45,947 nt of DNA from Candidatus Eiseniibacteriota bacterium (lineage in GTDB: Bacteria > Joyebacterota > Joyebacteria > Joyebacterales > Joyebacteraceae), in assembly GCA_030595835.1 (NCBI GenBank), contig JAUVLG010000012.1, positions 1 to 45,947 on the forward strand, in the 5' to 3' direction. Below, piece by piece: positions 29,417-39,549 of this stretch. Each line of letters begins with the position of its first letter. The first letter of the stretch is position 1. The position numbers and the translations under genes were made by a program. Under the pieces are notes generated by a model. That model saw only the letters and a list, made by a program, of their open reading frames with translations. It did no database searches and was not told the DNA's origin.

Positions 29417-29498
29417 GAGTAGGGCTGGACTGACAGACAGACGGACGGAGGGCCGGCCGGGATCGTGAACGTGGGGTCAGCCATTCCAGTGCGTTCTG

Positions 29499-29528
29499 GG
29501 GCGCGGACGTTGCACAATGTCCGCGCCC
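29499..29528 (+). terminator. Hairpin after the lipoprotein gene
   Basis: GGGCGCGGAC (29499-29508) and GTCCGCGCCC (29519-29528) pair perfectly around GTTGCACAAT; the inner bases can extend the pairing. CTGCTCGTTTGTG follows. It separates the lipoprotein gene from the SbcCD-CHAT-sigma cluster. Confidence 0.7.
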
Positions 29529-29611
29529 TGCTCGTTTGTGGGCCGGAGCGGCCGAAATCGGGGGAATTGGCCCCCGGAAATGCAGATTGAATTGCACCGG
29601 TAACGCATTTC

Positions 29612-29627
29612 AGGCACGGACTCTGCT
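29612..29627 (+). promoter_or_regulatory. Sigma54-like promoter before the SbcD-like gene
   Basis: AGGCAC (29612-29617), five bases, CTGCT (29623-29627) match the sigma54 -24/-12 form (TGGCAC-N5-TTGC) with exact GG-to-GC spacing and two mismatches. A start near 29638 would give a leader of about 60 bases. The region 29529-29700 otherwise holds only short GC hairpins. Confidence 0.5.
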
Positions 29628-29700: not shown

Positions 29701-30837
29701 GTGCCTATCATAATCCACACGTCCGACGTTGATCTCGGCAATCCGCTCGGCTGGCTTGGGCCGCGTGCGGCTGAACAGCGAGAGGAACTCCGGCGAACGT
29801 TGAGCAAGATCGTCGACCTGGTGATAGACCAGCACGCGGACGCCCTCGTGGTCGCCGGCGACCTGTTCCATTCCAACAACCCATCGGGGGCAACCGTCCG
29901 CTTCGTGCTCAGGGAGTTCGCGAGGCTGACGAGCGAGTCGAGCGCGAGCGTGGTGCTGCTGCCGGGTTCACACGACTCACTGGGTATCGAGTCGGTCTAC
30001 ACGAGCTACCGGTCCGAGTTCGGCAAGCTCGAGCGCGTCTCGGTGCTTGGTCTCGACGGTCTGAGTTCGATCGCTCTTGAGAACGCGGGACTCAGGATCC
30101 ACGGCAGCCCTCCTCGTGGCAATGGCCAAGACCGGTACGCCACGGCGTTGGCTCCCGACGACAGTTTCGCGTTCAATGTAGCGATGTTGCACGGCTCCGC
30201 TGAGGGAGATGCTTGTGAGGTCGGCGCCCCCTTCTCAGTGGCGGATCTCCCGGGGCCGGGTTGGTCCTACTACGCGCTCGGGCACCTGCGGTCGTGGCAC
30301 GAGATCGAGGGGTCGGACGGGCCGGCGGTCTACCCGGGGTCCCCTGAGCTGGTGGCCGTGGAGGGAGAGGGGCAGGGACACGTTGCACGAGTTGAGCTGA
30401 GAGCGAGCGGCGCGATCGTCTCGAAGGTGCGAGTCGGGGCCAGGAGCGTCATCGAGGCGAGAGTGGAGGTGACGGACACCTCGGACTCGTTCTCGATCGC
30501 GGAGCGTGTCCGGCAGCAGGCGCATTCGAATCCGAACGCCGTTCTGCGGTTGGTGTTGACAGGGTTGACGTCGGCCGAGGCGGGGATCGACGACTGGGAC
30601 CTGATCGAGGAGCTTGCCGGCGACTACTTCTTCGTCTGCCCTCCCGTCAGGGATTACCACATCAGGGTGAGCGACCAGGATCTCGTCCAGCTGCCCGAGC
30701 GGCTCGTGGTCGGGCGATTCGCGAGGCACATGAGATCGAGGCTCGAGGAGGCTGGGAGTGAGGAGGAGCGTCGGGAGATCGAGGACGCCCTTCAGCTTGG
30801 CGTGGCGCTCCTTCAGGGAAAGGACGTCATAGAATGA
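29701..30837 (+). CDS. SbcD/Mre11-like metallophosphoesterase with altered metal site
   Basis: 378 residues; GTG at 29701 with TGGAGG upstream (a longer open frame reaches 29536 but lacks homology). The calcineurin-like nuclease core is visible: 'HTSDVDLG' (D9; the usual His is D11), 'GDLFHSNNP' (D54, H57), 'GSHDS' (usual Asn is S90; H91 kept), 'LHGSA' (H164) and 'GHLRSW' (H195; the second His is R197). SbcD/Mre11 with SbcC/Rad50 cuts DNA ends. Three of the metal or catalytic positions differ, so the activity may be changed or lost. ATGA overlap with the SbcC-like gene confirms a pair (like B. subtilis YhaO-YhaN). Confidence 0.85.
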   Translation: MPIIIHTSDVDLGNPLGWLGPRAAEQREELRRTLSKIVDLVIDQHADALVVAGDLFHSNNPSGATVRFVLREFARLTSESSASVVLLPGSHDSLGIESVYTSYRSEFGKLERVSVLGLDGLSSIALENAGLRIHGSPPRGNGQDRYATALAPDDSFAFNVAMLHGSAEGDACEVGAPFSVADLPGPGWSYYALGHLRSWHEIEGSDGPAVYPGSPELVAVEGEGQGHVARVELRASGAIVSKVRVGARSVIEARVEVTDTSDSFSIAERVRQQAHSNPNAVLRLVLTGLTSAEAGIDDWDLIEELAGDYFFVCPPVRDYHIRVSDQDLVQLPERLVVGRFARHMRSRLEEAGSEEERREIEDALQLGVALLQGKDVIE

Positions 30838-32951
30838 GAATCCAACGCCTGAGACTGGTCAACTTCAAGCGCTTCGCCGACCACGAGGTCGCGCTGGAGC
30901 CAGGACTCAACCTCATTGTCGGACCGAACGAGTCCGGAAAGAGCAGCATTGCCGAGGCTCTTTCGACCGTGCTCTTTGCCGATCCGACCTCCATGGCGGC
31001 GTCCGTGAGATCTCTCGAGAGGTGGGGCGGAAGCGGTGGGATGAAGCTGGAACTCGATTTCGAGCAGGGAGAGAACAGCTACAAGTTGACGAAGGACTTC
31101 GGGGCCGGCACGGCGGAACTTGCACGCCGGACCGAGGGCGACGTGATCACGGATCGCGGCGAGATTGACCGCCTCATCGCCGGCGTGGTCGGGTTCGAGA
31201 CGCGTGACGCGTTCGAGTCCATAGCCTCGGTGCATCAGGACGATCTCGCGGGGCTCGAGGGACGTGGTGGGCACGCGCGGCGCGGCGCTCTGGTCCCGCT
31301 TATCGAGCGGAAGATGACGAGCTCGAGTGGTAGAGTCGATGCCACACGGGTCATCGATACCATCAGCAACAGGATCGATCGGCTGAAGGTCGGACTGCAC
31401 AAGCCGGCGAAGCACGCTGGTCCGCTCAAGCGGCTTCAGGATAGACGAGAGGAACTGCTGCCGAGAGCGGCGGTCATTCGCAAGCGTTGGGACGCGATGC
31501 AGCGCGTGAGGAGTGGAATGGCGCGCGATCGTGAGGAGCTGACGGTTGCTTCGCAGGAGCTGCAGAGCCTCGACGAGGCGTTCCTCAACGAGGAGACCAG
31601 GCGAGGTCAGGAGGAAGAACTGAAGCGGCTGCGGGTCGGGTTCGACGAGCGCGCGGTCAAGATCAACCGCATCCGGAAGCTCCGGAGCGACGTTGCCGAT
31701 GCCTGGGATGCACTGGTGCAGGGTTCGCGCGATCAGGAGAAAGAAGCGATCGCCGCGAAGGCCGCGCTGGATGCCCTGGACGACAGGGTTGAGACACTGA
31801 AAGGGCTCGTGCCCGGAGTCAAGAGCCCGCTGGAACTGCGACCCGGCGTCGGTGTTGCGTTGGTCGGCGTAGGGGCGGTCGCTGTCGCCGGCGCTCCCTT
31901 CATTGTGGAGATGGGGGCCGTGCTCAAGTGGGGTCTGGTGGCAGGCGGCGTGGGGCTGGCTGTCTGGGCGATCTTCCTGATGCGCAAGGCCGCGCATGTC
32001 TGGAGCGCCGCGCAGGAGATCAGGAACGTGCTCCAGGAGAGGAAGAAGCGAGAAACGGTGCTGAGCGCGGCTCTGCTGAAACTGGGCATTCGTACCTACG
32101 GGGGGCTTGAGGAGTACGCCGCGAAACAGGACGAGGCGAGGCGGAACGTGGACATCTGGAACGCAACCCTCTACGAGGTATGCGAGGGGAACGATCCCGA
32201 GACCGTGGAGAAGGAGCTGCAGACAGAGGTTGCGTCGCTCGAGGGTCGGATCCTCGATATGGAGGGTGGCGTGAGAGAGGCCGCGACCAGCGGCGGGGTT
32301 GTGACGGCGGTCGATGTGTCGAAGCTCCGCTCGGAACGCGAGCAGCTCTCAGACAGCGTGAACGAGCTGAGAGAAAGCATCAAGCGTCGCGAGGCTCAGC
32401 TGGAAGGTATGGAGACCGATGAGACGCTGCCTGACCTGGAGGCGGAGATCGAGCGTGTCACAGGCGAGATGGCCGGACTCGAGCGGCACATCAGAATACT
32501 GGCACTGACGAAGGACTCGCTGCTGAAGGCGATGGCGAGCGCCAACGAAGAGGCAGCCACGGTGCTCGAGCCCATCATCGGCCGCGTTCTCTCGCGGTCC
32601 ACGCTGGGACGGTACTCGCGGGTGATGATGGCCGACGACCTCAATCTGTCGGTCTCGACGCCCTCGGGCACCCGCTCGGCGCCGGCCAGTCTGGAAACGT
32701 CTGATCTGAGCAAAGGTACGCTGGACCAGCTCTACTTCGCCGTCAGATACGCACTTCTGGAATTCCTTTCCCCCGGAGATGGCTCACCGCTTATACTCGA
32801 CGATGCCCTCGTCCACTGGGATCCCAACAGGCGTTCAGCCACGTTGGAGCTTCTCGACGAGATCTCTGCCAAGAGGCAGGTCCTGCTCTTCACCTGTGAA
32901 GGGTACGGCAGCGAGTTCGCTGATTCGCTGGTGCTGCTCCCAGGAGCGTAG
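30834..32951 (+). CDS. SbcC/YhaN-like AAA ATPase with central membrane hairpin
   Basis: 705 residues, ATG at 30834 overlapping the SbcD-like stop. N-terminal Walker A 'GPNESGKSS' (30-38) follows a RecF/SbcC-type start ('LRLVNFKRFADHEVALEPGL'). The middle is coiled coil, interrupted at about 339-386 by two hydrophobic segments ('GVALVGVGAVAVAGAPFIV' and 'WGLVAGGVGLAVWAIFLM') that should form a membrane hairpin. The C-terminal ATPase lobe has 'LSKGTLDQLYFAVRYALLEF' (signature) and Walker B 'PLILDDALVHWD' (about 652-663). Short SMC-like ATPases of the YhaN type act with an SbcD-like partner. There is no zinc-hook CxxC. Confidence 0.88.
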   Translation: MRIQRLRLVNFKRFADHEVALEPGLNLIVGPNESGKSSIAEALSTVLFADPTSMAASVRSLERWGGSGGMKLELDFEQGENSYKLTKDFGAGTAELARRTEGDVITDRGEIDRLIAGVVGFETRDAFESIASVHQDDLAGLEGRGGHARRGALVPLIERKMTSSSGRVDATRVIDTISNRIDRLKVGLHKPAKHAGPLKRLQDRREELLPRAAVIRKRWDAMQRVRSGMARDREELTVASQELQSLDEAFLNEETRRGQEEELKRLRVGFDERAVKINRIRKLRSDVADAWDALVQGSRDQEKEAIAAKAALDALDDRVETLKGLVPGVKSPLELRPGVGVALVGVGAVAVAGAPFIVEMGAVLKWGLVAGGVGLAVWAIFLMRKAAHVWSAAQEIRNVLQERKKRETVLSAALLKLGIRTYGGLEEYAAKQDEARRNVDIWNATLYEVCEGNDPETVEKELQTEVASLEGRILDMEGGVREAATSGGVVTAVDVSKLRSEREQLSDSVNELRESIKRREAQLEGMETDETLPDLEAEIERVTGEMAGLERHIRILALTKDSLLKAMASANEEAATVLEPIIGRVLSRSTLGRYSRVMMADDLNLSVSTPSGTRSAPASLETSDLSKGTLDQLYFAVRYALLEFLSPGDGSPLILDDALVHWDPNRRSATLELLDEISAKRQVLLFTCEGYGSEFADSLVLLPGA

Positions 32952-33047
32952 GACGCAGGGCACGTTCGATCCGGTCAACCTGCATGCGACACTCGCGCTT
33001 CTTCGGAGGCGGCGAGTAGTCGCGTGCGTACACCCGAGGGGGAGCGC

Positions 33048-34571
33048 GTGAAGCGCGAACGATGCCCGCGATGCGGCGGGCGCCTCGATGTTGAGGGCGA
33101 GAGCTGGAGCAAGGCCGAAGGGACGGTGGAACGCTCGTTCCGGTGTCGCTCGTGCGGCGAGCGATTCGGTGCGTCCGTTCAGTGGCCTAATGCGGCCGCG
33201 CCCTCACAGCTGACGCGTCGCGCGAAGCGGCTCCCGGCCCTCGTTTTCGCGTGGGTATCGCTGGCACTCGCGGTCCTCTGGATTGTTCTCCGGTCTCTCG
33301 ACTACGGTAGCGTCAGGGTGGTGGTCTATGGGACCGTTGCCCGTGGCGCCGAAGGGTTCCTGCACCCGGTGTGGGTCGTGTTCCTGCTTGCCGTCGCCGC
33401 GTTCCTTTTTGCTGCAGCGCGAAGGCGCTCAGCTCCGCTGGTCGTGCCGGCGTCGGTGGCTCCCGCTGTGCAACTCAGGGCCGAACCTCGGGGGATGATC
33501 TCCGTGGTGGTCGCGGGCTCGCGGGACGCCGCGGCGAGGGATTGGGTCGTCGTGCGGAATCAGCTTGAGGAGGCGCGCGTTGTGGGGGCCTTCCACGCTC
33601 TCGCGCAGAGGAGTAGCTCGTTTGCCGCGGCGAACGAGAGCGGCGGATGGAGCCGCGCAGAGATAGAGGACGCACAGAGGGAGCTCTACGCTCTAGGGCT
33701 GGCGATCGGGAGTGCTCTCCTGGGTGGGTCCGGCGAGGTTGCCGATGCTCTGGTCGATCTGCCGGGTGACCACCTGCAGGTTGGGGTACAGAGCGAGCTC
33801 TCGGGGATCCCCTGGGAGCTTCTGGTAGCGCGGAAGGGCGGCGAGTATCTCTGGCAGCTGTTCTCTGTTACGCGTCAGCTTCGTGACAGTGCCGGTGTGA
33901 GACCCGGCCCCGTGAGGCACGGCGGCGGGTGCCGGCTGCTCCTGATTGCGAACCCCGCGGCCGGCGGGTCCGGCAGGGAGCTTGAGGCCGTTGAGCGTGA
34001 GGCGGCGGATCTGCTCGAGCTCGGGGCATCGAGGCCGGATCTGCTGCGAGTTGTGAGGAAGTCGCCGCGGTCGGCGGACGAGCTGCGTCAGCTGCTGACG
34101 GAGGGGTTCGACGTCCTCCACTTCGCCGGTCACACGGGCGACGCGACGGGGCTGGAGCGGGGGTGGGTGCTCGGCGATGGTAACGCCATCAGCCCGGCGG
34201 AGCTCTTCTCCGACGGGGTGCATGTGCCGACCCTGGTCTTCGCGAACGCCTGCAGCTCGAATCCGTCCACGCCTGGAGAGAGCGTTGCCGACGCGGCGCG
34301 TGGTCTCATGCTGGCAGGCGTCCCCGCCTACCTGTGTACCATTGCAGAACTACATGACGCCGGCAGCGCAGCCTTCAGCGGCGCCTTCTACAGAGCGGTC
34401 CTCGGTGGAGGCACCCTCGGCAGCGCGGTGACGGCGGCCAGAACCGCGCTTCTTGGCAGGCACCCGATCACCTGGGCCAACTACGTGCTGTACGGCGACC
34501 CGGCACTGATCCTGTGCGGTGGTTCCACCGCACACCCCCCGGCGAAGAAGCCAGCGTTCTCAAGCGACTGA
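33048..34571 (+). CDS. Membrane CHAT-domain caspase-like protease with zinc ribbon
   Basis: About 507 residues; GTG at 33048 has AGGGGGAG upstream (GTG at 33024 is an alternative). An N-terminal zinc ribbon ('CPRCGGRLD' and 'CRSCGERF') is followed by two membrane helices (about 70-90 and 110-130, 'FAWVSLALAVLWIVL' and 'VWVVFLLAVAAFLFAA'). The C-terminal half is a CHAT domain with catalytic His in 'LHFAGHTG' (H362) and Cys in 'FANACSS' (C402), ending 'WANYVLYGDPALIL', typical of the family. CHAT proteases cleave partner proteins on activation. Topology places the zinc ribbon and protease on the cytoplasmic side. It is directly coupled to a sigma gene (TGATG). Confidence 0.88.
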   Translation: MKRERCPRCGGRLDVEGESWSKAEGTVERSFRCRSCGERFGASVQWPNAAAPSQLTRRAKRLPALVFAWVSLALAVLWIVLRSLDYGSVRVVVYGTVARGAEGFLHPVWVVFLLAVAAFLFAAARRRSAPLVVPASVAPAVQLRAEPRGMISVVVAGSRDAAARDWVVVRNQLEEARVVGAFHALAQRSSSFAAANESGGWSRAEIEDAQRELYALGLAIGSALLGGSGEVADALVDLPGDHLQVGVQSELSGIPWELLVARKGGEYLWQLFSVTRQLRDSAGVRPGPVRHGGGCRLLLIANPAAGGSGRELEAVEREAADLLELGASRPDLLRVVRKSPRSADELRQLLTEGFDVLHFAGHTGDATGLERGWVLGDGNAISPAELFSDGVHVPTLVFANACSSNPSTPGESVADAARGLMLAGVPAYLCTIAELHDAGSAAFSGAFYRAVLGGGTLGSAVTAARTALLGRHPITWANYVLYGDPALILCGGSTAHPPAKKPAFSSD

Positions 34572-35209
34572 TGACAGGAAGGAAGCGGACCGGATTGACG
34601 GCTCGAGACGACACTGATCCGCGAATCAAGCGCATGATAGCCAGGCTTTGTGCAGGGGACTCTGACGCGTGGTCGGAGTTCATAGAGCGGTACAGGCGGC
34701 TCATCTACAGCGCCATTCACCGGGTGAACGGGCGCTACGGAGGGGAATGGGATGAGACCGCCCTGGACGAGCTGTTCGAGGAAGCTCTCTACAAGCTGTT
34801 GAGGAACAACGGGCGTGCCCTCAAGTCCTGGAAGGGCCAGTGCAAGCTGGAAACGTGGATCTATCGGATCGTCAGGAATGTATGCATCGATCGGATGCGA
34901 AAAGAGGGACGGCGCGGAGAGGTTGCGGAGCTGGTGGAGGACAGGAGTGCCGCAGCCGGTGCGGGAGATGGGGCGGCGTCCAGGAGAGAGAACAAGGATC
35001 TCAGGATATCGCTGGAGCAGGCTATCGACCGCGCGCTGACGACCCGAGAGGCACTGGCCGTGAAGCTGATCTACTTCGAGGGCTTCACATATCGGGAGAT
35101 TGGTGAGCGCCTGGGATTGACGGTCGGCGCCGTGAGTGGCCTGGTCTACCGAGCTCTGGCGAAGCTGCGGACCGAGGGCGGTGTGGCACGCTACTGGGAA
35201 GAGAGGTAG
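34571..35209 (+). CDS. ECF-type sigma70 family sigma factor
   Basis: About 212 residues; ATG at 34571 overlaps the CHAT stop (TGATG); TTG at 34595 has a better ribosome site (GGAAGGAAG) and would shorten it by 8 residues. Region 2 is visible ('LFEEALYKLLRNNGRALKSW', 'LETWIYRIVRNVCIDRMRK', the -10 binding helix) and region 4 ('LTTREALAVKLIYFEGFTYR' then 'EIGERLGLTVGAVSGLVYRA', the -35 helix-turn-helix). It has no sigma-1.1 or region 3, so it is an ECF-type alternative sigma factor. The next gene, seven bases on, encodes its likely anti-sigma. Confidence 0.92.
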   Translation: MTGRKRTGLTARDDTDPRIKRMIARLCAGDSDAWSEFIERYRRLIYSAIHRVNGRYGGEWDETALDELFEEALYKLLRNNGRALKSWKGQCKLETWIYRIVRNVCIDRMRKEGRRGEVAELVEDRSAAAGAGDGAASRRENKDLRISLEQAIDRALTTREALAVKLIYFEGFTYREIGERLGLTVGAVSGLVYRALAKLRTEGGVARYWEER

Positions 35210-35216
35210 GCGGAGC

Positions 35217-36059
35217 ATGAGACGGAGGTGTCCGGATAAGGAGAGACTCCTGCTCCACGCCGAGGGCGAGCTGAACGGCCGCGCCGGCGAGGAGGTCGCC
35301 TCGCACGTAGCCGGTTGTGAGGTGTGCGCGGAGACGGTGAGGAGTCTGCGTGCACTGACGTCCGCGCTGCGGAGGGCAGGATCGGAGACAGGTGCCTCGC
35401 AGTCGGATACGTGCCCGGACGCGGCAACCGTCGCCGGCTACGTCGACGGAACACTGGAAGGAGATCGGGCGCGCGACGTGGAGAAACACGTTGTGTTGTG
35501 TGGCACGTGCCTGCGCCTGGTCGCGGATCTCTGGGCCATGTCCGGAGCTGGCGGGCACGACGCGCCGGACGCAGTAGTTGCCCGAGTACTTGCAGGTCTG
35601 AAGAGCGATTCGCGGACCGCGGTGCTGTGTTGGGCAGAGCGCTCGATCGAGCTCGTGAGAGACTTCGCGTCATCGTGGACCAGTGGCGCGGGTCGTGTGC
35701 CCACGTTCGTGGGTGAGCTGGCGCTGGCGACGAGCAGATCGTCAGATGGGGGGGTGAGACTCCACTGGAGGGGAGCGGGGGGATCGGTGGTGGAGGGGGT
35801 AGTGCGCTCCGACGGGCGGGCGGCCTCACTGACGTGTCGTGTGACCGTGGATGGGATCCCCGCTGCGGCGGTCTCCGCCGTGCTCGCTTCCGGCAGCGCT
35901 ACAACGGGTCCCGAGTCTCTGGACGCGGACGGCCGCTTCGGCCCATGGCCCCTCGCACCAGGCGACAACGTGCTGCGGCTGACCGGTCTGTCTGCGGAGT
36001 TGGGTGGAGCAGCAGAGCTTGTTGTTGTGCTTGCCGCCCCGGTGGACGAGGCTGAGTAG
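35217..36059 (+). CDS. Soluble anti-sigma factor with two zf-HC2 domains
   Basis: 280 residues, ATG at 35217, seven bases after the sigma gene. Two zf-HC2/ASD-like domains in tandem: C-x-many-'HVAGCEVC' (about 5-45) and C-x-many-'HVVLCGTC' (about 63-105), each with the His-x3-Cys-x2-Cys zinc pattern of anti-sigma factors that wrap the sigma protein. The C-terminal half (about 155-280) is beta-rich and lacks any membrane helix, ending in a Gly/Asp-rich segment with a carboxypeptidase-regulatory-like look ('FGPWPLAPGDNVLRLTGL'). Most ECF anti-sigmas cross the membrane; this one appears cytosolic. It could be cleaved by the CHAT protease. Confidence 0.85.
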   Translation: MRRRCPDKERLLLHAEGELNGRAGEEVASHVAGCEVCAETVRSLRALTSALRRAGSETGASQSDTCPDAATVAGYVDGTLEGDRARDVEKHVVLCGTCLRLVADLWAMSGAGGHDAPDAVVARVLAGLKSDSRTAVLCWAERSIELVRDFASSWTSGAGRVPTFVGELALATSRSSDGGVRLHWRGAGGSVVEGVVRSDGRAASLTCRVTVDGIPAAAVSAVLASGSATTGPESLDADGRFGPWPLAPGDNVLRLTGLSAELGGAAELVVVLAAPVDEAE

Positions 36060-36102: not shown

Positions 36103-36130
36103 CGGGGCCCACTTGTTGGGCCCCGTTCCT
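36103..36130 (+). terminator. Rho-independent terminator after the anti-sigma gene
   Basis: CGGGGCCCA (36103-36111) pairs with TGGGCCCCG (36117-36125) around CTTGT, followed by TTCCTGCATTCCTT. It closes the five-gene cluster. Confidence 0.75.
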
Positions 36131-36235: not shown

Positions 36236-36251
36236 TGGCACAGCTCTTGCA
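36236..36251 (+). promoter_or_regulatory. Sigma54 promoter of the histidine kinase operon
   Basis: TGGCAC (36236-36241), five bases, TTGC (36247-36250) then A is a full match to the sigma54 -24/-12 consensus. Transcription should start near 36262, leaving about 140 bases before the kinase ATG. The rest of the 36126-36403 gap shows no gene. Confidence 0.8.
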
Positions 36252-36403: not shown

Positions 36404-38560
36404 ATGATGCACGTGAAGAGGGCGAAGTCGACGTGGGGAAGAGCGCGGGTATCCAGGGAGGCACGGGTCTGGGGCTTCGGAGCTGCTGCACTTGCCATGC
36501 TCATCATGGCGGGCGCGCGCATGGATGGGTTGACATGGGGTGCGGTGGGCATCATGAGCGCCGTGGGCATAGCGACGAGCCTCTTCTCGTTCCAGATGGA
36601 CGAGAAGCACTCTGTGACCTTCGGTCCCGCAGTGTTCATGGGTTCGGTAGCGCTCTTCGGCGCATTGGTGGCCGTCTGGGTGACGGCGGTATGCTGTGTG
36701 CTGCTTGAACTCGTGCGATTGAGCCGAGGTGAGAAGCCCGCGTTCGCCAGGGTCAGCATCCGTGTCATAGCGGTGGTCGCGGCGTCCGGCGTCTACATGG
36801 GCGTCGGTGGTGTCGTGGATCCTGCCGGACTGTCCCTCGCGGTCGTAGCCAGGTTCATCCTGATGTTCGCTACCTACGCGGTAATCAGCGGTGTTCTCGA
36901 GGCGTCACTCGAGGGCTCGGAAGGCGATAGGTTCGAACGCTACACAAGGTGGTTTTCCGAACGGGGTGTCGTGATCGAGCTGGCAATGCTCCCACTGTCG
37001 CTCCTTCTCGTCGCGTCGTACATCCCGGGTGAGCCGGCGACATTCCCGCTCCTGGCCTTGGTGCTCATCATCTCGAGTGCGGCTGGACAGAAGCTCTGGG
37101 AGACACAGCAGAAGCTGCTCGAGAGAGTGAGCGAGCTCAAGACACTGAACTCGGTCGGCGATGCGCTGACATGCGCGGTCAGGCTTGATGACCTCGTCCG
37201 ACTGGTTCACCGTCACACGATGAGCCAGCTTTCGGCCGACGCGGTTTCGGTCGCGCTCAAGGACGCCGAACAGGACACCCTGGAGTTCAAGATCTGCATC
37301 CGGGACGACTGCGAGATAGCCTCAGTGACCAGTGAGGCCGGGGGCTCGTACACTGACTGGGTCGCCGCGCACAAAGAGGTTCTATATGTTCAGGACATGG
37401 TGAAGGACGAGGGCCGGGCACTGGCCCCGCCGGTGGCCGAGTGCGTGGGGAACAAGCACCTGGAGGTCCGCTCATGGCTGGGTGTCCCTCTCATCGCAGA
37501 GAACGAACTCGTGGGAGTGCTGTCCATCATGAGCGAACGTGTGAGGGCATTCGACGAGCCCACCCTGGAGCTTCTGACGACGATCGGAACTCAGGTGGGG
37601 AAGGTCGTGAACACTGCGCGGCTATACGGGGAACTTGAGGTGGCCCAGCGGGCGGCCGAGAGTTGGAGCAAGGAACTCGAGCATAAGGTGAATGAGCGGA
37701 CCGGAGAACTGACCGAGGCGAGGGAGGAACTGGAGTCTCTCAACGAGGATCTTGAGCAGCGAGTCGAGAAGAGGACCAAGGAACTGAGGGACATGCAGAC
37801 GAAGATCGTGGAGTCTGGTCGACTGGCCGCCGTGGGAGAGCTGGCGGCGGGCGTGGCGCACGAGCTGAACAACCCTCTTGGTGGGATTCTGGGATACGCC
37901 CAGTACGACCTCGAGAAGCTGAAGGGTGCGGAGTCCCTGTCAGGGACCGCCATGGAGAGAGTTGTGGAGCACCTGACGTTCATCGAGAGCGGTGCTCAGA
38001 GGTGCGCGGAGATCGTTGAGAGCCTGCTACGCTTCTCGGAGACCTCTCGCTGCGCATCGACCGACGTGAACGTGAACGAACTCGTAGAAGAGACGCTCGG
38101 GTTCACGAGTCGCGAGTTTGCCAGTAGAGGGATAGAGCTCAAGATCGATCTCGAGGAGGGGGGCCTGGAGGTGGTTGGTGATCCGAGACAGCTGCAGCAG
38201 GTCTTCACGAACATAGTGATGAACGCTCGGAAAGCGATGAGGTCGGGTGGACGCTTGTCGGTCGCGAGCGCACGGATTCCTCACGAGAAGGGCGGGAATG
38301 ATTCCGTCGCGATCAGTTTCGGTGACACGGGTTGTGGGATACCAGAGAAGGACCTGGTACGGGTCTTCGAACCGTTCTTCTCGACCGGAGAGGTGGGCGA
38401 GGGCAGCGGGCTGGGCCTGTCCGTCAGCTACGGCATCGTGAAGGATCATGGCGGCAACATAGACGTAGAGAGCAAGGTCGGAGTAGGATCAACCTTCACT
38501 GTTCTCCTGCCACTCGCTGGGGGCGACGGCAGCGAGAACCTGCTTGAGGGAAGGGCCTAG
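36404..38560 (+). CDS. Membrane sensor histidine kinase with GAF domain
   Basis: 718 residues, ATG at 36404 with GGGGG upstream. About seven hydrophobic helices fill the first 230 residues (MASE-like membrane sensor, for example 'GPAVFMGSVALFGALVAVWV'). A GAF domain follows (about 245-405, 'LGVPLIAENELVGVLSIMSE'), then a long coiled coil with two 'ERTGELTEAREELESL'-type repeats, a HisKA domain with the phosphorylated His at H486 ('GVAHELNNPLGGILGY'), and HATPase_c ('NIVMNARKAM', 'GDTGCGIPEKDL', 'GEGSGLGLSVSYGIVKDHGG'). It autophosphorylates and probably passes phosphate to the overlapping receiver-GGDEF protein. Confidence 0.92.
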   Translation: MMHVKRAKSTWGRARVSREARVWGFGAAALAMLIMAGARMDGLTWGAVGIMSAVGIATSLFSFQMDEKHSVTFGPAVFMGSVALFGALVAVWVTAVCCVLLELVRLSRGEKPAFARVSIRVIAVVAASGVYMGVGGVVDPAGLSLAVVARFILMFATYAVISGVLEASLEGSEGDRFERYTRWFSERGVVIELAMLPLSLLLVASYIPGEPATFPLLALVLIISSAAGQKLWETQQKLLERVSELKTLNSVGDALTCAVRLDDLVRLVHRHTMSQLSADAVSVALKDAEQDTLEFKICIRDDCEIASVTSEAGGSYTDWVAAHKEVLYVQDMVKDEGRALAPPVAECVGNKHLEVRSWLGVPLIAENELVGVLSIMSERVRAFDEPTLELLTTIGTQVGKVVNTARLYGELEVAQRAAESWSKELEHKVNERTGELTEAREELESLNEDLEQRVEKRTKELRDMQTKIVESGRLAAVGELAAGVAHELNNPLGGILGYAQYDLEKLKGAESLSGTAMERVVEHLTFIESGAQRCAEIVESLLRFSETSRCASTDVNVNELVEETLGFTSREFASRGIELKIDLEEGGLEVVGDPRQLQQVFTNIVMNARKAMRSGGRLSVASARIPHEKGGNDSVAISFGDTGCGIPEKDLVRVFEPFFSTGEVGEGSGLGLSVSYGIVKDHGGNIDVESKVGVGSTFTVLLPLAGGDGSENLLEGRA

Positions 38561-39549
38561 TGGATCAGCTGAATGTTCCGGAGGAAATCGACGGTAGCAC
38601 CGAGGAAGAGAGCCGGTCCGAGGAGAAGACCCCCGTTCGCCTGCTCATCGTGGACGATGAGGAGATCATGCGGGAGTTCCTCAACGAGGTTCTGAAGGAC
38701 GAGGGCTACGTGATAGACCTCGCCGTGTCGGGCAAGGACGCGCTCCGGCAGATGAACGCCTCGGAGTACGACATCGTCCTCACGGACGTTGTCATGCCCG
38801 AACTTGACGGGCTCGGTGTCGTTGCCGCGACGAAGGACCTGCCTTACGACCCGAGCGTCATCGTGATGACGGGATACGCTTCCATGGAGACGGCCGTCGA
38901 GTCCATGAAGCTCGGAGCGGCGGACTACATCACCAAGCCCTTCAACATCGATCAGATAAGGATCATCGTCAGGAACGCGGTCAAGGAGCGCGTGCTCAAG
39001 GAGCGCGCCGCGGAGGGGGAGTTCTACAAGGAGCTGTCGAGAAAGGACGGCCTGACGGAACTCTACAACCACCGCTTCTTTCATCAGCTACTGGAGACCG
39101 AGGTCTCACGCGGCGAACGCTACGACAGGGTCGTGAACCTGCTGATGATAGACATCGATGATTTCAAGAGCTACAACGATTCGCACGGGCACCCCGCGGG
39201 TGACATCGCGCTCCGCAGGCTCGCGCAGCTGCTCAAGCAGGGATCACGCAGCTGTGACTTCGTGGCCCGGTATGGAGGAGAGGAGTTTGCCATCATCGTG
39301 CCGGAGGTCAGCGCGGACTCGGCAAGGCGGATGGCCGAGAGACTCCTGAAGCTGATAGAGGACGCCGAGTTCGAAGGCGAGGACGTCATGTTGGGCGGGC
39401 GGTTGACCATCAGCGTGGGCATTGCCACGTTCCCCATGCAGGCGTCCAGCAAGAGCGAGCTGGTCGAGCACGCCGACCAGGCGTTGTACAGGGCGAAGGG
39501 CCTGGGCAAGAATCGGGTCGTCGTGTTCGGTGAGGAGAGAGTGAACTAG
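38560..39549 (+). CDS. Response regulator diguanylate cyclase (PleD-like)
   Basis: 329 residues, GTG at 38560 overlapping the kinase stop by one base. Receiver domain (about 30-140): 'LLIVDDEEIMREFL', phospho-acceptor D76 in 'VLTDVVMPELDG', 'MTGYAS' and 'DYITKPF'. GGDEF domain (about 160-325): 'DGLTELYNHRFF', 'MIDIDDFKSYNDSHGHPAGD', active site 'ARYGGEEF' (239-243) and the allosteric I-site R230-x-x-D233 five residues before it. It should make cyclic di-GMP when phosphorylated, with product inhibition. It sits with the kinase under a sigma54 promoter. Confidence 0.94.
   Translation: MDQLNVPEEIDGSTEEESRSEEKTPVRLLIVDDEEIMREFLNEVLKDEGYVIDLAVSGKDALRQMNASEYDIVLTDVVMPELDGLGVVAATKDLPYDPSVIVMTGYASMETAVESMKLGAADYITKPFNIDQIRIIVRNAVKERVLKERAAEGEFYKELSRKDGLTELYNHRFFHQLLETEVSRGERYDRVVNLLMIDIDDFKSYNDSHGHPAGDIALRRLAQLLKQGSRSCDFVARYGGEEFAIIVPEVSADSARRMAERLLKLIEDAEFEGEDVMLGGRLTISVGIATFPMQASSKSELVEHADQALYRAKGLGKNRVVVFGEERVN

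Follow-up and report, generated by a model that had tools for sequence, protein, structure and literature searches.

The CHAT protease, the ECF sigma factor and the zf-HC2 protein encoded side by side in the region studied here make up one evolutionary unit that recurs across bacteria. Bacterial CHAT proteases are known mostly from CRISPR- and CBASS-linked immunity. The trio appears to be a general and widespread regulatory unit, which in Eisenbacteria belongs to the core genome and is inherited vertically.

Organization of the genomic locus

The window, i.e. the whole stretch of 45,947 nucleotides that was analysed, is part of the core chromosome of a Candidatus Eisenbacteria genome, where the cluster locus is vertically inherited. 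An earlier reading of the sequence alone had described five tightly packed genes on one strand and regarded them as a single system. The five ORFs (29701-36059) are indeed all open, intact and co-oriented on the plus strand, and their overlaps, gaps and coordinates were all found again, including the 96 bases that separate the YhaN-like gene from the CHAT gene (counted from the CHAT start at 33048). However, the cluster consists of two units, A (SbcD/YhaO-like and YhaN-like genes) and B (CHAT, ECF sigma and zf-HC2 anti-sigma genes):

29497..29530, + strand: GC hairpin resembling a terminator, after the upstream lipoprotein-like gene and before the cluster; compensatory changes preserve the stem in the genus
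29612..29627, + strand: sigma54-type promoter box AGGCACGGACTCTGCT (GG-N10-GC), 73 bases before the SbcD start
29701..30837, + strand: SbcD/YhaO-like phosphoesterase (family and motif evidence); GTG start
30834..32951, + strand: YhaN-like (Rad50/SbcC-type) ATPase; ATG start, ATGA overlap with the SbcD gene
32978..33036, + strand: hairpin-forming YhaN-CHAT spacer; near-perfect stem in a sister species, with compensatory changes
33048..34571, + strand: CHAT protease; GTG start (alternative start 33024), N-terminal zinc ribbon, two TM helices, His370/Cys410
34571..35209, + strand: ECF sigma factor with regions 2 and 4; ATG start, TGATG overlap with the CHAT gene
35217..36059, + strand: soluble predicted anti-sigma with two zf-HC2/ZAS domains; ATG start, 7-base gap after the sigma gene
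36104..36125, + strand: GC hairpin GGGGCCC...GGGCCCC at the end of the operon; no clear U tract

Profile matches agree with the five families assigned earlier (SbcD-like, YhaN-like, CHAT, ECF sigma and tandem zf-HC2). The zinc ribbon of CHAT, the beta-sandwich of the anti-sigma, the YhaN-CHAT hairpin and the changed SbcD motifs were absent from that description.

The surroundings of the cluster are housekeeping genes (tRNA genes, dnaX and recR), together with those for a histidine kinase and a receiver-GGDEF protein, and the upstream ORFs were read by eye from the sequence as nusA, infB, truB, pnp and a cysteine desulfurase. As already stated by the sequence-only reading, no CRISPR lies nearby: a CRISPR-like repeat array was sought in the window and none was found, the sole short-spaced repeats lying within the coding region at 6.0-6.9 kb. 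None of the five cluster genes matches a Cas protein, and PADLOC gave only a generic ATPase and weak SAVED-CHAT matches on the cluster.

Conservation within Eisenbacteria

The CHAT of the cluster, with collinear neighbours, is present in 18 of the 20 Eisenbacteria genomes examined; the two without it are G006 (100% complete) and G015 (57% complete). Seven of eight genera share the gene order, their proteins being roughly 40-85% identical, so the arrangement is not due to chance. In the loci examined, wherever contigs reach, the shared order is peptidase, lipoprotein, SbcD, YhaN, CHAT, sigma, anti-sigma and histidine kinase, and in all genera with the trio the latter lies on the same strand as SbcD-YhaN, with short gaps. 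In G006, peptidase, lipoprotein, SbcD and YhaN are followed directly by the histidine kinase, the three trio genes being missing at one point. This may reflect either loss or a branching that preceded the gain of the trio, the tree being compatible with either. Since the entire block keeps its order throughout the phylum, with or without the trio, the adjacency of SbcD-YhaN and the trio is by itself no evidence of joint function.

Recurrence of the trio outside Eisenbacteria

The search for CHAT (PF12770) covered 241 genomes, most of them single representatives of families outside Eisenbacteria. Most, not all, of the listed CHAT matches were taken for analysis of their neighbourhoods, where sigma and zf-HC2 were called with iterated HMMs built for the survey, and the unit counted was the CHAT ORF of at least 250 aa outside Eisenbacteria (n=117). 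An ECF sigma lies within 1.5 kb of 38 of these 117 genes; the density of sigmas per 1.5-kb bin is 0.17 beside CHAT, 0.05 one bin further out and 0.01 in the bin after that. Both a sigma and a zf-HC2 protein, adjacent or fused, accompany 21/117, in 12 families. The arrangement seen most often is sigma > zf-HC2 > CHAT (12 cases), while the order of the window (CHAT, sigma, zf-HC2) occurs three times. Neither SbcD nor YhaN was found near any of the 117 genes.

zf-HC2 and CHAT are even joined in one protein in two genomes (L154 and L195), the second of which adjoins an ECF sigma and is an ortholog of DdvA (E 2e-134 over its length). The zf-HC2 proteins of the other trios are of two sorts: some are soluble, with a C-terminal beta domain, and others combine a TPR-like part and a hydrophobic segment. 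The input domains of the trio CHATs vary as well, and include TPR arrays, guanylate cyclase plus CsgG-like parts, and PEGA. In two different families (L037 and L179) the CHAT of the trio is a fusion protein with a CsgG-like part and a guanylate/adenylate cyclase domain, encoded next to an ECF sigma and its predicted anti-sigma. In L156, a compact CHAT-PEGA protein (457 aa) is followed by an ECF sigma and a soluble zf-HC2 protein, which is the Eisenbacterial order without SbcD/YhaN.

The window shows the same features, with CHAT, ECF sigma and zf-HC2 adjacent on one strand, an anti-sigma homologous to those of other trios, and an intact dyad. The linkage of CHAT, sigma and zf-HC2 put forward by the sequence-only reading is thus borne out by recurrence in 12 other families, joint absence in G006, zf-HC2-CHAT fusions, and a dyad kept in 22/24 trios. 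Of the conserved co-occurrence that this reading had called for, the part concerning the trio is thus found.

Components of the trio

The CHAT protein matches PF12770 (4.1e-26), and its start at 33048 has a good ribosome site and agrees with the starts in other genera. It comprises an N-terminal zinc ribbon, two TM helices and the CHAT domain, with no TPR match, and the positive-inside rule would place both zinc ribbon and protease in the cytoplasm. The dyad H370/C410 (numbered from the alternative start at 33024) is invariant in 16 divergent orthologs and retained in 15/15 Eisenbacterial CHATs and in 22 of 24 trio CHATs, the two others having Tyr in place of the dyad His. The earlier description of a membrane CHAT with intact His/Cys is therefore confirmed, as far as prediction goes for the two helices. 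The structure model (pLDDT 74, pTM 0.71) matches separase, Csx29/TPR-CHAT, SAVED-CHAT and gingipain, and also the transmembrane anti-sigma factor DdvA (8rot, E 4e-8). An apparent CHAT-sigma fusion in G014 (L026) proved to be an artefact, the match running through a TGA that is a real stop. A TGA seemingly inside CHAT in some genera gives no indication of recoding, the sole stop in the three alignments viewed lying at the C-terminal end. The source genome (G000) also encodes four further large CHAT proteins of about 1,055-1,266 aa on contigs C81, C110 and C159 (L086-L088); two of these genes are adjacent to each other, and 0/4 have an ECF sigma nearby.

The sigma factor (sigma70-ECF TIGR02937, 3.1e-29) has regions 2 and 4 and no region 3, as is characteristic of ECF sigmas. 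Eisenbacterial sigmas group with those of several trios that have soluble beta-domain zf-HC2 proteins (tree support 96/86). The zf-HC2 protein, which from knowledge of its family would inhibit this sigma, carries the motif twice (H30-x3-C34-x2-C37 and H91-x3-C95-x2-C98), all these residues being invariant in 12 orthologs. It has no TM segment and is soluble, with a low-confidence linker (107-176) and a C-terminal beta-sandwich (about 179-273). Its structure model is moderate (pLDDT 64), and the matches of the beta-sandwich are weak, none having an E below 0.01. Nevertheless, over its length the protein is homologous to the soluble proteins that combine ZAS and beta-sandwich in other trios (hhalign prob 98.8, E 8e-17; prob 83, E 9.5e-7 for the C-terminal part alone). 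Among solved structures, its ZAS is best matched by that of DdvA, and it also resembles those of ChrR and RsiW.

Promoters and hairpins

The sigma54-like promoter noticed earlier in front of the cluster stands: the box AGGCACGGACTCTGCT has the GG-N10-GC spacing and reaches 19.7 out of 21.7 by a simple consensus scoring, a value attained by none of 200 shuffles; it is conserved upstream of SbcD in most genera, and rpoN is present in the genome. A near-perfect sigma54 promoter (TGGCACAGCTCTTGCA, 36236-36251) also precedes the genes for a GAF histidine kinase (36404-38560) and a receiver-GGDEF protein (38560-39549). It is stronger than the SbcD box, and the corresponding boxes score at least 19.2 of 21.7 in 11/12 Eisenbacterial loci, and in G006 as well. 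The operon is probably expressed from a sigma54 promoter, and the two boxes suggest that an RpoN activator, and not the ECF sigma, controls its expression.

Of the terminator that the sequence-only reading had placed after the cluster, the GC hairpin 3' of the operon is real, but a clear U tract is missing. The hairpin in the YhaN-CHAT spacer is conserved in the genus (L021-L025), with a near-perfect stem of ~20 bp in L025, and may be an attenuator, a processing site or a protein site. A dispersed repeat was considered and rejected, the element being single copy in the three genomes tested.

Relationship to known systems

The module had not been recognised by the sequence-only reading. However, DdvS/DdvA of Myxococcus xanthus is a studied ECF/ZAS/CHAT system (PDB 8rot, 8rw5, 8rlz), and the proximity of CHAT genes to ECF54 sigmas had been remarked before, together with a proposal of proteolytic control (PMC8999054). 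Unit B is of this known kind, as a variant with a soluble anti-sigma and a membrane CHAT, because its anti-sigma has homologues over its length in other trios and zf-HC2-CHAT fusions exist, one of them a DdvA ortholog. DdvS-DdvA shares with the window the ECF sigma, the ZAS anti-sigma and the CHAT domain, but DdvA holds ZAS, TM, TPR and CHAT in one polypeptide, whereas in the window these are separate genes, with no TM in the anti-sigma and no TPR in CHAT. Moreover, the CHAT of the window is itself a membrane protein with a zinc ribbon, the soluble anti-sigma combines two ZAS domains with a beta-sandwich, and the trio is preceded by SbcD/YhaN-like genes. The trigger of DdvS/DdvA was unknown as of PMC4374960. 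ECF54 sigmas, whose neighbours are CHAT, subtilase or carboxypeptidase genes, resemble the sigma of the window in that CHAT lies in their genetic neighbourhood, but they were described under ECFs without an anti-sigma (PMC8999054), whereas the window has a zf-HC2 protein.

Two CRISPR-linked systems provide further comparisons. In type III-E Craspase/DiCASP (Cas7-11, Csx29 TPR-CHAT, Csx30, CASP-sigma), the CHAT protease Csx29 cuts Csx30 and thereby relieves the inhibition of an ECF-like sigma (PMC10028731). The window shares a CHAT-type protease with a fold match, an inhibitor and an ECF-like sigma, but differs by the lack of any Cas match or CRISPR array, by its zf-HC2 inhibitor and by a CHAT without TPR; its CHAT gene has housekeeping neighbours instead of a Cas7-11 effector and a CRISPR array. 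In CalpL-CalpT-CalpS (type III CRISPR), a signal-activated protease cuts an anti-sigma and frees the sigma (PMC11229360), as proposed here for the window, but this is a CRISPR-linked Lon-type protease with a SAVED domain, whereas that of the window is a CHAT. In the open-licence literature searched, which does not prove absence, we found neither the separated form with soluble anti-sigma and membrane CHAT, nor its breadth, nor its Eisenbacterial setting.

A putative protease-gated sigma switch

We propose that CHAT cuts the anti-sigma, as the sequence-only reading had suggested, and frees the sigma, a switch that we hold with about even confidence. The two ZAS domains would keep the ECF sigma inactive in the cytoplasm, while CHAT would be anchored by its two TM helices with zinc ribbon and protease on the cytoplasmic side. 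Some input would activate CHAT, which would cut the anti-sigma, probably at the exposed linker between ZAS and beta-sandwich, and the sigma would then be free for its regulon. In Eisenbacteria, the input may be taken by the zinc ribbon or membrane part of CHAT; help from the membrane ATPase YhaN and its SbcD-like partner would be the weakest step, and an unlikely one. Cleavage is the most economical model because the dyad is retained, CHAT is predicted in the same compartment as the soluble anti-sigma, and the ECF sigma is adjacent. The switch is well motivated by the recurrence of the trio, the fusions, the joint absence in G006, the homology of the anti-sigmas, the kept dyad and the fold matches of CHAT; the Csx29 precedent, the variable inputs on a constant core and the sigma54 promoter would support it further. 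Pointing against it are the two trio CHATs with Tyr for His, and the possibility that ZAS responds to redox or metal directly. If the protease does free the sigma, the proteolytic control of sigmas would gain a further class, in addition to site-1/site-2 proteolysis and CRISPR-linked systems, and DdvS/DdvA would have a simpler relative with separate parts, easily tested in E. coli.

CHAT might instead be a sensing or scaffolding subunit of the anti-sigma complex that does not cut, with a conformational change releasing the sigma or with the zinc site of the ZAS as the sensor, in the style of ChrR/RsrA. ZAS and CHAT share one protein in DdvA, L195 and L154, the ZAS of the window resembles those of ChrR and RsiW, and a direct response to redox or metal is common among ZAS anti-sigmas. 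DdvA reportedly carries its CHAT across the membrane from its ZAS, so that a CHAT need not cut the ZAS protein. However, selection for a scaffold would not require the dyad, and its invariance in the 16 divergent orthologs and retention in most trios make this explanation unlikely. The trios, in which sigma usually comes first, are also compatible with sigma controlling the transcription of CHAT, which would then be an effector that attacks other cell proteins from an operon autoregulated by the sigma. This seems rather improbable given the conserved sigma54-type promoter of the Eisenbacterial operon, the position of CHAT upstream of sigma, and the ZAS-CHAT fusions, which put CHAT in the sensing arm. 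Finally, defence systems often contain CHAT proteases and SMC-like ATPases, and DdvS/DdvA is reported to control a CBASS-CRISPR island in Myxococcus, but an anti-phage or abortive-infection system is very unlikely in a vertically inherited core locus among tRNA, dnaX, recR and translation genes, with no CRISPR-like array and only the generic and weak PADLOC matches.

The SbcD-like and YhaN-like pair

The SbcD-like protein matches Metallophos (1.8e-7) and SbcD TIGR00619 (1.2e-18, below the cut-off of that model). As in YhaO-YhaN and SbcD-SbcC pairs, the phosphoesterase gene overlaps that of a Rad50-like membrane ATPase, but the copy in the window differs by altered metal-ligand motifs and by its position ahead of the CHAT trio. 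The complete metal-ligand set of SbcCD/Mre11 (D-x-H, GD, GNHD, H and GHxH) is not present: motif I is DVD, with His replaced by Asp in the window only; motif III is GSHD, Asn being replaced by Ser in 13 of the 14 aligned members and by Cys in the remaining one; and motif V is GHLR, the second His being Arg or Pro across the genus. The GD motif and the single H motif are retained. The SbcD proteins of the other genera keep motifs I and V and lack only the Asn of GNHD. The YhaN-like protein has AAA_23/AAA_27 matches, conserved Walker A and signature motifs as in the Rad50-type ATPase partner of SbcCD/Mre11, and a central TM hairpin near residues 338-385.

According to the sequence-only reading, the SbcCD-like pair would sense DNA damage or foreign DNA. 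The locus is real and conserved, but the sensor idea, however attractive, is weakly supported, as local synteny is conserved anyway and the window SbcD has lost metal-ligand residues; none of the 117 outside CHAT genes has SbcD or YhaN nearby, and pairs occur without the trio. We consider it probable that only CHAT, sigma and anti-sigma form a functional unit and that SbcD-YhaN is an independent neighbour sharing their transcription, which is compatible with the proposed switch minus its last step. SbcD-YhaN pairs without CHAT were found in four other families (where the flanking ~8 kb on either side, or 3-6 kb at one contig end, contain none of CHAT, sigma and zf-HC2) and in G006, trios everywhere else surveyed are without the pair, the neighbourhood is collinear across the phylum, G006 included, and a hairpin separates YhaN from CHAT in the genus. 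On the other hand, the two units lie on the same strand with short gaps in all trio-bearing genera, YhaN and CHAT are both membrane-anchored, and YhaN could report membrane or DNA state to CHAT, because its ATPase motifs and TM hairpin are kept. The sole tie found between the two is operon-like spacing, with the genus-conserved hairpin in between. That this SMC-like membrane ATPase and its SbcD-like partner directly gate an anti-sigma-cutting CHAT, outside CRISPR and defence islands and as a core trait of the phylum, appears quite unlikely.

The GDLFH of SbcD motif II was also considered as a lost ligand, and rejected because Thermotoga SbcD has GDLLHS. The loss of metal ligands in SbcD is stepwise, affecting motif V within one genus and motif I further in the window species, while the ATPase partner is intact.
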